This document shows positions 18,777-29,439 of a stretch of 64,000 nt of DNA, piece by piece. The notes under the pieces are model-generated. The model was not told where the DNA came from and made no database searches. It worked only from the letters and a program-made list of their open reading frames with translations. The position numbers and the translations under genes are program-made. The stretch's first letter is position 1. The number at the start of each line of letters is the position of its first letter. This DNA is from Pseudosulfitobacter pseudonitzschiae. Lineage in GTDB: Bacteria; Pseudomonadota; Alphaproteobacteria; Rhodobacterales; Rhodobacteraceae. The stretch covers positions 62,001-126,000 of the forward strand of contig NZ_CP022415.1 of assembly GCF_002222635.1 (NCBI RefSeq), read 5' to 3'.

Positions 18777-20339
<1,563 letters not shown>

Positions 20340-20384
20340 GTGTGATCTCTTTTTTGTCCTAAAGCCTGTGGCGCGCGGCACTCC

Positions 20385-20420
20385 CCTCTGAGCGGGCGCG
20401 CCAGATGGCACGCTCAGAGG
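20385..20420 (-). promoter_or_regulatory. Leader hairpin between the leucine leader peptide and leuA
   Basis: CCTCTGAGCG (minus strand, containing the leader stop codon) pairs exactly with CGCTCAGAGG, loop of 16 bases. An alternative pairing uses GGCGCG from the loop with CGCGCC about 20 bases further down. A ribosome finishing the leader would cover the first arm; one stalled on the Leu codons would leave it free. No U-tract follows, so the readout may not be classical termination. Confidence 0.65.
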
Positions 20421-20494
20421 CGAATTAGGATCAGTAGGTCGCGCAGGATCGCACGCGATGCGCGGGCGGAAGGGATATGTGCGACTTGTGTCAT
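20414..20494 (-). CDS. Leucine-rich leader peptide of leuA
   Basis: 26 codons, too short for ordinary gene calling. It begins MTQVAHIPSARASR and ends ILRDLLILIRL, so five of the last ten residues are Leu and three more are Ile, Val or Leu-like. The stop codon is inside the first arm of the leader hairpin, and the leuA ATG is 75 bases downstream. This is the arrangement of attenuation leader peptides of leucine and branched-chain operons in proteobacteria. The peptide probably has no function except to report leucyl-tRNA supply. No strong ribosome site is visible upstream, though the ATG sits 25 bases after an A+T-rich stretch that could be the promoter. Confidence 0.7.
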   Translation of the reverse strand: MTQVAHIPSARASRAILRDLLILIRL

Positions 20495-20642
20495 GAACAA
20501 AGCTTATACCGGCCTTTGATTGAATGAAAAGGGGGCAGACTTATTATTTGCGCCGCGCTGGTGCGGGTCACGGTTTCTTTGGCGGGAAATTTTCGTGCTT
20601 CAGAAGATGGACGGGGGTGCGCGGGGCGCTAATTCGGGTGTC

Positions 20643-21299
20643 ATGGCAAATGTATTGGTATTGGGCGCCTCGGGCGGGATCGGGTCGGCATTGCAGGCCG
20701 CACATGCGGGGCGCGGCGATGCTGTGACGGCCCTGTCGCGATCGGGCGATGGGTTTGACGTAACAGACCCTGCGTCGGTGGATGGTGCGCTGGCGGGGCT
20801 GGGGCCCTTTGATCGGGTGATTGTGGCGACGGGTGCGTTGGAGATTGCAGGCGCAGAGCCGGAAAAGACGATTCGCGCAGTAACGGCCAAGGCGATGGCC
20901 GACCAGTATGCGGTGAACGCCATTGGTCCTGCGCTGGTGCTGGCTCATGCGCATGACCTGCTGAAGCCGGACGGGGTGTTTGCCGTGCTGTCTGCCCGTG
21001 TAGGGTCGATTGGCGACAACCGGATTGGCGGATGGATCAGCTATCGCAGCGCCAAGGCTGCGGTGAACCAGATTGTGCATACGGCGGCGATTGAACTGGC
21101 GCGGACACACAGGCACGCGGCGGTTGTGGTATTGCATCCCGGTACGGTGGCCACGCCATTTACCGAAAAGTATCTTGGTCGGCACCCATCGGTCCCACCC
21201 GAGAAGGCTGCGATCAACCTGCTGATGGTGATGGACGGGATGACCCGCGATCACACAGGCCGCTTTTTCGATTGGGCGGGAAAAGAGGTTCCTTGGTGA
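20643..21299 (+). CDS. Short-chain dehydrogenase/reductase family protein
   Basis: 218 residues from ATG 20643 (MANVLVLGASGGIGSA), chosen because the nucleotide motif G-A-S-G-G-I-G then falls at residues 8-14 as in the family; longer in-frame starts at 20607 and 20520 add unrelated sequence. The catalytic pattern S-Y-R-S-A-K is present at about residue 136 with the Ser upstream in L-S-A-R-V-G-S. It uses NAD(P) in the cytoplasm; the substrate is unknown. The C-terminus overlaps the photolyase GTG start, so the two are co-translated. The same SDR-photolyase pairing suggests a light-response unit, but the chemistry of the SDR within it is not known. Confidence 0.85.
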   Translation: MANVLVLGASGGIGSALQAAHAGRGDAVTALSRSGDGFDVTDPASVDGALAGLGPFDRVIVATGALEIAGAEPEKTIRAVTAKAMADQYAVNAIGPALVLAHAHDLLKPDGVFAVLSARVGSIGDNRIGGWISYRSAKAAVNQIVHTAAIELARTHRHAAVVVLHPGTVATPFTEKYLGRHPSVPPEKAAINLLMVMDGMTRDHTGRFFDWAGKEVPW

Positions 21300-29195: not shown

Positions 29196-29204
29196 TCCGA
29201 CCAT

Positions 29205-29360
29205 CCGTCATGGGAGAACCGGCCTAAGGTGCCGGTGCCGAAGGAGCAACCGCCCCGGAAACTCTCAGGCAACAGGACCGTGACAGGATATGAGGACTCT
29301 GGAGAGTGGTGCCAAGCACCCGCCGAAGGGATAACGATCTCAGGCGACAGGACAGAGGGG
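29205..29360 (+). ncRNA. Tandem glycine riboswitch
   Basis: Two glycine aptamers in series. The first (about 29211-29283) has GGGAGAACCGG, GCCGAAGGAGCAA and AACTCTCAGGC followed by ACAGGACCG. The second (about 29296-29358) has TCTGGAGAG, CGCCGAAGGGATAACG and ATCTCAGGCGACAGGAC. The conserved CCGAAG and CTCAGGC cores occur in both. Glycine binding turns on the downstream gcvT-H-P genes in known examples. The first ribosome site (AAGGAGAG) is about 70 bases after the second aptamer, and no obvious terminator lies between, so the expression platform probably acts on translation; this last point is inference. Confidence 0.95.
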
Positions 29361-29439
29361 GCATCGCAGGCGCAGCCATTTTGGCGCGTCGTATGATGCC
29401 GGCCTGTTGTTCCAACGGACCCGGTCAAAGGAGAGACCG

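Follow-up and report, generated by a model that had tools for sequence, protein, structure and literature searches.

A candidate leucine-sensing leader without a terminator upstream of leuA in Rhodobacterales

In Pseudosulfitobacter pseudonitzschiae, the leuA gene follows a short leucine-rich open reading frame whose stop codon lies within a hairpin. Our comparison with related sequences suggests that this region is, on balance, probably a terminator-free leader that senses leucine and controls leuA translation through leucyl-tRNA-dependent ribosome stalling. The comparison lends sequence-level support to the leader itself, its leucine codons, two helices that we call H1 and H3, less firmly a third helix (H2), and the absence of a terminator. 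That the leader senses leucine through being translated appears very likely. A sequence-only reading of this locus had proposed ribosome-mediated control by leucyl-tRNA with an outcome other than classical attenuation, and the proposal gains support from the leader, Leu codons, and stop codon that are kept among relatives and from compensatory changes in the hairpin.

All coordinates below refer to the window, the 64-kb stretch of NZ_CP022415.1 that was analysed, and all parts of the element lie on its minus strand. The leuA gene (18777-20339) encodes a 2-isopropylmalate synthase of 520 amino acids, an assignment based on the earlier reading and on similarity to annotated 2-isopropylmalate synthases. 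The leader open reading frame (20414-20494) has 26 codons, running from an ATG at 20494 to a TGA at 20416-20414, 74 nt from the leuA ATG at 20339. The encoded peptide, MTQVAHIPSARASRAILRDLLILIRL, ends in LLILIRL and has five Leu codons (CTG CTA CTG CTA CTC) among its final 11. The stop codon falls within the 5' arm of H1 (CCTCTGAGCG, 20411-20420), which forms 10 perfect pairs with the 3' arm (CGCTCAGAGG, 20385-20394) across a 16-nt loop (20420-20411 with 20394-20385). H2 connects the H1 loop with sequence 3' of H1 through 8 bp (20403-20396 with 20376-20369, pairs checked); its 5' arm, TGGCGCGC (20396-20403), is inside the loop, and its 3' arm, GCGCGCCA (20369-20376), could together with H1 complete an H-type pseudoknot. 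H3 joins the leucine-codon stretch with the stretch just upstream of leuA. Its 5' arm (20425-20433) is paired at 20433-20432 and 20430-20425, as examined by duplex energy, covariation, and a check of the pairs, and its 3' arm, TTTAGGAC A (20355-20362), lies in the upstream half of the leuA ribosome-binding region. The sequence AAGAGA (20346-20351), 6 nt before the ATG, is what we infer to be the likely leuA Shine-Dalgarno stretch; similar purine runs are visible before leuA in many relatives. A promoter-like site (20503-20530) precedes the leader and consists of TTTTCA (20530-20525), a 16-nt spacer, and TATAAG (20508-20503). The leucine-rich frame and the placement of its stop codon inside a perfect 10-bp hairpin (20385-20420) had both been described in the sequence-only reading and hold up in the sequence, the frame also recurring in 76 of 80 genomes; H3 and the position of the promoter had not been noticed and are first recognized here. 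When folded freely, positions 20340-20500 give a z score of -2.1, with 7 of 200 shuffles equally stable, which is unimpressive alone. The case for a leader element is therefore built on the comparison among relatives and not on the fold energy of the window.

We searched for leaders with a fixed rule, which called for a short open reading frame with at least four Leu in its final 10 codons and an end approximately 30 to 150 nt upstream of leuA. The second of our two samples comprised 80 upstream regions from Rhodobacterales genomes, chosen from among the leuA matches listed and covering 66 different genera plus 14 closer relatives. The leader was found in 76 of these 80 leuA-selected genomes, and in 74 of them a hairpin of 9 bp or more contains the stop codon; no leader was seen in L096, L112, L148, and L149. 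Under the same rule, a leader was called in none of the 80 reverse complements, in 3 of 400 shuffles, and in 1 of the 80 stretches lying further upstream, and none of these shuffled or further-upstream cases had the hairpin. The leader is present far beyond chance in this leuA-selected sample. In the first sample, assembled by leuA similarity (L001-L052 and L067), a Leu-rich leader end was seen in 47 of the 53 loci classed by record title and rank as Rhodobacterales-like, and these 47 were used. Four loci had no leader (L004, L025, L036, and L048), and two were left unjudged because L001 has only a short stretch upstream and L051 has no upstream sequence at all. By eye, a different reading frame seems to end shortly upstream of leuA in L004, L025, and L036, as if leuA had shifted into an operon and the control had been lost. 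The leuA gene itself was present in all 292 genomes searched. Adding the window to the 76 leaders of the second sample and the 47 of the first gives 124 leaders, of which 123 are different. L093 and L005 do not differ over 120 nt, L103 and L013 are 92.5% alike, and the main tests were repeated without L093 and L103 (74 leaders). The leuA starts of L027 and L032 are set inside the gene, and the starts assigned to L024, L034, and L040 are possibly incorrect; all five were kept in the sets of 48 and 124.

The three helices were examined with an exchange test, in which the duplex energy of each species' own two strands is compared with that of strands swapped between species. In the first set (n=48), z scores were -12.5 for H1, -5.8 for H2, and -7.1 for H3, against 0.9 and 0.4 for controls. 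The second set (n=76) gave -13.1, -5.9, and -10.5, respectively, with 0 of 5000 permutations as good in each case, and three control strand pairs gave 0.8, 0.1, and -0.01. Leaving out the two lookalikes of first-set sequences (n=74) changed these values little (H1, -12.8; H2, -6.0; H3, -10.5; controls, 1.0, -0.02, and 0.45). Because kinship can inflate exchange tests, we also compared 24 disjoint pairs of near relatives, paired by leuA. Own strands were better in all 15 differing pairs for H1 and in 19 of 23 differing pairs for H3 (sign test, p = 0.0026). For H2 they were better in 15 of 24 (sign test, p = 0.31; Wilcoxon, p = 0.07), and the controls came to 12 of 23 and 11 of 22. On alignment A2 (48 rows), 98.3% of H1 cells are paired, 3 of the 10 pairs show two-sided changes (as many in 5 of 500 shuffles), and the covariation score was matched by 0 of 500 shuffles. 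Based on the exchange tests and the near-relative pairs, we regard H1 and H3 as well supported by sequence comparison, and H2, which is conserved and fits, as less firmly supported, its covariation being weaker. The sequence-only reading had looked to co-variation in the leuA upstream regions of other Rhodobacterales as a check; the leader and its stop-codon hairpin are indeed conserved there, with compensatory changes. The H3 strands themselves take many forms, among them CTTAGC/GCTAAG, CCTAA/TTAGG, TTACGC/GCGTAA, and CTGCTG/CAGCAG. The median distance from the end of the H3 3' arm to the leuA AUG is 14 nt (quartiles 7 and 17), which places the arm in the ribosome-binding region and, in many leaders including that of the window, off the Shine-Dalgarno stretch itself. 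In the window, H3 (20433-20425 with 20362-20355) is close to AAGAGA on its upstream side; it is weak alone (-3.7 kcal/mol) and adds 4.0 kcal/mol to H1.

These elements can be arranged into a mechanism in which transcription would start at the leader ATG and a ribosome would translate the leader as a leaderless message. With ample leucyl-tRNA, the ribosome would reach the stop codon and leave, and the RNA would then fold H1, with H2 as a pseudoknot, and close with H3. The Leu codons held in H3 would cover the leuA ribosome-binding region, resulting in poor leuA translation. When leucyl-tRNA is short, the ribosome would halt at Leu codons -7 to -4; occupying the Leu-codon strand, it would keep H3 from forming, and leuA would be translated. 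H1 and H2 would serve to keep the two strands of H3 together, and the direction and size of the leucine effect are likewise what we infer.

We assessed the predicted accessibility of the leuA ribosome site in the 113 of 124 leaders with at most 100 nt between the stop codon and leuA, leaving the pseudoknot out of the folds. Opening the region from -30 to -1 costs a mean of 9.5 kcal/mol in the free leader versus 5.5 kcal/mol with the Leu codons covered (n=113), being easier when they are covered in 95 leaders and harder in 9. A foreign Leu stretch in place of the leader's own gives 7.5 kcal/mol, the cost with the own stretch being higher in 79 leaders and lower in 16. In the core region from -15 to +8, a small gain is predicted (up in 61 of 113 leaders, down in 18), and own and foreign Leu stretches differ little (33 up, 31 down), and from -5 to +12 there is no gain among the 113 leaders (36 up, 32 down). 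In the window, the cost of opening -20 to -1 drops from 4.4 to 2.1 kcal/mol with a stalled ribosome, whereas that of -15 to +8 changes in the wrong direction, from 1.5 kcal/mol free to 2.2 kcal/mol stalled. The predicted masking lies nearer the AUG in some relatives, such as L026 (12.9 to 3.7 kcal/mol), and not in the window. Given these weak or missing differences, we rejected -15 to +8 and -5 to +12 as the regulated site. From the differences by region, H3 is predicted to mask the upstream half of the leuA landing site, which in the window is the part upstream of AAGAGA.

The same arrangement could also act through Rho, which would end transcription before or within leuA once the ribosome leaves at the stop codon and the RNA is untranslated; ribosome stalling, or an accessible leuA start, would prevent termination. 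Poor translation invites polarity, and low leuA translation via H3 would itself do so; in addition, there is no U-tract, and the 74 nt from the stop codon to leuA could take part of a loading site. However, the conserved items in this region are the helices H1, H2, and H3, and H3 points to the leuA ribosome site. We therefore consider a Rho-dependent outcome unlikely and favor translational control of leuA.

Leu is found at codon -4 in 124 of 124 leaders, at -6 in 121, at -5 in 111, and at -7 in 105. Every one of the 124 leaders has CT in the first two positions of codon -4, with T in 66, A in 55, C in 2, and G in 1 at the third. Since CT is constant while the third base varies, it is the amino acid Leu that is kept at this position. 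The codon CTA makes up 15.7% of 674 Leu codons in the leader tails versus 1.1% of 1799 in 48 leuA genes; in the window, it accounts for none of the 38 Leu codons of leuA versus 2 of 5 in the leader tail. In the Salmonella leu leader, replacement of CUA codons made attenuation less sensitive, as related in a passage of a later paper (PMC1183508). Together, the kept Leu, the enrichment of CTA, and the Salmonella result indicate that the amino acid is under selection and that the codon choice suits sensing. Some of this codon choice may also serve H3. The identity of codon -4 is associated with the H3 arm (32:1 against 2:21; Fisher p = 4e-12, with kinship ignored), and paired switches of the two number 4 independent pairs on the best tree and 1 on well-supported branches. 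With so few independent switches, we did not take this association as proof.

These codon data bear on the view that a regulatory protein binds this RNA and that the peptide frame is incidental, as Seliverstov et al. favored for the actinobacterial LEU element in passages of their 2005 report (PMC1262725). A compact pseudoknot with a base stem would suit such a site, and the phylogenetic argument given in those passages speaks for one as well, yet a protein site would have no need of the coding constraint seen in the invariant Leu at -4, its varying third base, and the enrichment of CTA. We find a protein site improbable.

The region between H1 and leuA has no T run longer than 4 in any of the 124 leaders, which bears out the earlier reading in its statement that a U-tract is missing. 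Within the 14 nt 3' of H2, no T run exceeds 4, and the longest is 0-2 in 108 of 124. Intrinsic termination at the leuA leader was rejected on this ground. The same genome builds a textbook attenuator at ilvI, in which the leader MSQNALERTQDMLDVVVIVGSTHMGR (...DVVVIVG...) is followed by a CCCCCG-loop-CGGGGG hairpin and seven T (locus L184, minus strand, upstream of the best acetolactate synthase match, 1282323-1284005 of G000:C1). The absence of a terminator is therefore a property of the leuA leader. Rfam searches detected no leader family in the whole window at the gathering threshold, in 20200-20700 at E values up to 10, or in four loci at the gathering threshold. The window does contain tandem glycine riboswitch aptamers, a known family, at 29201-29365 on the plus strand (62.8 and 39.7 bits).

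We considered whether H1 and H2 form a pseudoknot or ALTERNATIVES, and the sequences make the pseudoknot the simpler reading. The alternative pairing described in the sequence-only reading does exist, as the 8 bp of H2, but it has no base in common with H1, so both can coexist. Mutually exclusive hairpins of the trp kind may occur but are not the default, since the H1 and H2 arms do not overlap. By limits set in this analysis, 115 of 124 leaders have spacings compatible with an H-type pseudoknot, and the window has the geometry S1 10 bp, L1 7, S2 8 bp, L2 1, and L3 8. The third loop is merely 4-5 nt in 24 of 124, which is short for a 10-bp stem unless outer pairs open. Classical transcription attenuation would make H2 the terminator and H1 the antiterminator, with the position of the ribosome choosing between them. 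The order of elements does resemble that of textbook attenuators, H2 is GC-rich, and a ribosome on the stop codon would block H1. Nevertheless, H1 and H2 share no bases and are separated by 0-3 nt (H2 5' arm to H1 3' arm) in 123 of 124 leaders, and the T-poor sequence following H2 contrasts with the U-tract terminator of ilvI; we judge this scheme quite improbable. Translational control of leuA, with H1 and H2 present together, remains the reading we prefer.

The position of the promoter points to a leaderless message. With the leader start picked blind to the promoter (2 of 124 leaders were without a usable ATG), 102 of 122 leaders have their best -10 match ending 6-8 nt upstream of the ATG; in the window, the distance from the end of TATAAG to the ATG is 8 nt. 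The leader is thus probably leaderless, its transcript being predicted to begin at its own ATG near 20494. The promoter is conserved and unusual: at about -35, TTGACA is replaced by a pyrimidine-rich, CTTTTCATT-like block that is position-locked to the TATA sequence and the leader ATG (122 leaders; window, 20530-20503). Leaderless transcripts are common in this class, with 375 leaderless messages in Caulobacter (passages of PMC4117421) and 171 start sites in Sinorhizobium meliloti (passages of PMC3616915). Near the leader start, at about residues 3-10, 87 of 122 leaders have His followed by I/M/T/S/N; the window has CAT ATC (His-Ile) at codons 6-7 (20479-20474), a motif that recurs in relatives. 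The His codon is CAT in 82 and CAC in 5, which suggests a motif at the nucleotide level early in the transcript, and we rejected the motif as a sign of a trans-acting peptide. A trans-acting role of the peptide, or of a small RNA derived from the leader, as reported for the leaderless trp leader of Sinorhizobium, finds support in this N-terminal motif and in the likely leaderless start shared with rnTrpL (as described in part of PMC10117765), but we hold it very improbable given that the motif looks nucleotide-level and that there is no U-tract terminator to free a small RNA, although a side role in trans is possible.

Among known systems, the anatomy of the leuA leader agrees closely with that of the LEU element, a comparison made with the printed description of that element in passages of one report. 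According to those passages (Seliverstov et al. 2005, PMC1262725), the LEU element lies upstream of leuA in most Actinobacteria and comprises a leader with a Leu run, a pseudoknot, and a base stem formed by the Leu codons and the leuA Shine-Dalgarno box. The first of these features has a counterpart here, and the other two have candidate counterparts. A leader with a Leu run precedes leuA in 76 of 80 Rhodobacterales genomes. A possible pseudoknot in the leader fits the spacings in 115 of 124, with H2 covarying overall (z -5.9) and favored in 15 of 24 near-relative pairs, and the Leu codons are predicted to form a covarying stem, H3, with the leuA ribosome-binding region. The differences are the phylum and the position of the H3 arm, which here is often just upstream of the Shine-Dalgarno stretch and not on it. 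In the same passages, the mechanism of the LEU element is left open with a leaning toward a protein, and codon changes in Streptomyces leuA are said to have had some effect, inconsistent with classical attenuation (PMC1262725). By analogy, the codon-change result in those passages also counts against the ribosome-stalling mechanism proposed here. The Streptomyces lividans leuA leader, MRFGLLLLSCRGEGL, is described in part of another report as leaderless and without a typical terminator (PMC8079986). Passages of further reports mention a leuA leader in Corynebacterium glutamicum (PMC4046766) and a ribosome-protected open reading frame upstream of leuA in Mycobacterium abscessus (PMC4974804). 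The one plasmid copy of leuA from Streptomyces that we examined has no visible leader.

Other leader systems share single features with this one. In the ermC and cat systems of translational attenuation, a ribosome stalled on the leader frees the ribosome site of the next gene. A stalled ribosome would do the same upstream of leuA; the signal here, however, would be a lack of charged tRNA and not a drug, and a stop-codon pseudoknot would be possible in addition. The leu operon of enterobacteria has the leuL leader upstream of leuA. As in that attenuator, to judge from parts of two reports (PMC6123439, PMC1183508), the leader is short, has clustered Leu codons including CUA, and would sense leucyl-tRNA; it differs in having no U-tract terminator, an outcome that is most likely translational, and a probably leaderless start. 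The S. meliloti trpL/rnTrpL leader is likewise an alphaproteobacterial amino-acid leader, and its transcript begins at the leader AUG (passages of PMC10117765), as is predicted for the leuA leader. The trp leader is described there as a transcription attenuator yielding a small RNA (PMC10117765), whereas no small RNA is expected from the leuA leader.

To follow the element beyond Rhodobacterales, we used a covariance model, R1, made from H1 plus sequence. R1 has one match in the genome of the window, at the leuA leader, and matches in 31 of 385 genomes of the class, five of them from the window's family, under strict filters that lose weak matches. We fetched 20 of the other 26 R1-match loci, and a leuA reading frame follows in every one. 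Outside Rhodobacterales, a loose rule identifies 41 loci (40 different, as L178 looks the same as L069) in which the end of the leader contains Leu and its stop codon falls within a hairpin. These are 21 of 27 non-Rhodobacterales similarity loci plus the 20 R1 loci; left out were L055, L059, L063, L078, L079, and L080, among which L059 has a Leu-rich leader and L078 and L079 have no clear leader. H2 is not supported by the exchange test in these 41 loci (z -0.42), most of which have an H1 loop able to fold into a small hairpin by itself. For H3, the 20 class-level loci give a z score of only -2.0, with 148 of 5000 permutations as good, in a set where at least two leader ends are mis-set (L165 and L176) and some leuA starts look wrong (L166 and L171). 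Several of the leuA leaders in L164-L183 end in Leu-Arg-Leu, with CGA between CTT codons (CTTCGACTT), and in some of them the CTTCGACTT stretch pairs with the leuA ribosome site. Seen by eye, a leader of the same kind also precedes leuA on the 1.5-Mb replicon pPAN3 of Paracoccus pantotrophus (L190), classed as conjugative by PLSDB.

Leader-peptide control of leucine genes is a textbook theme, and its textbook form needs a terminator. The work of Vitreschak et al. (2004) on Proteobacteria attenuators reportedly treated ilvIH in Alphaproteobacteria, and that study or later papers of the same group may contain part of the present finding. In the open literature, as covered by titles, abstract beginnings, and some passages, we found no description of a leuA leader in Alphaproteobacteria.

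We suggest tentatively, with the balance of belief just short of even, that the LEU element is not restricted to Actinobacteria: most Rhodobacterales may use a leaderless, terminator-free leuA leader in which the Leu codons serve as both sensor and masking strand and a stop-codon pseudoknot serves as the hinge, and other Alphaproteobacteria may use a simpler form of it. An alignment and a covariance model now exist for this RNA, which has no match in Rfam 15. If this suggestion is true, the open mechanism of the LEU element would be settled toward ribosome stalling and translational control, and the actinobacterial element would be linked to tractable organisms in which its mechanism can be tested. 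Most of the Rhodobacterales would then set their entry enzyme of leucine synthesis by a translational switch whose sensor codons are themselves the masking strand.
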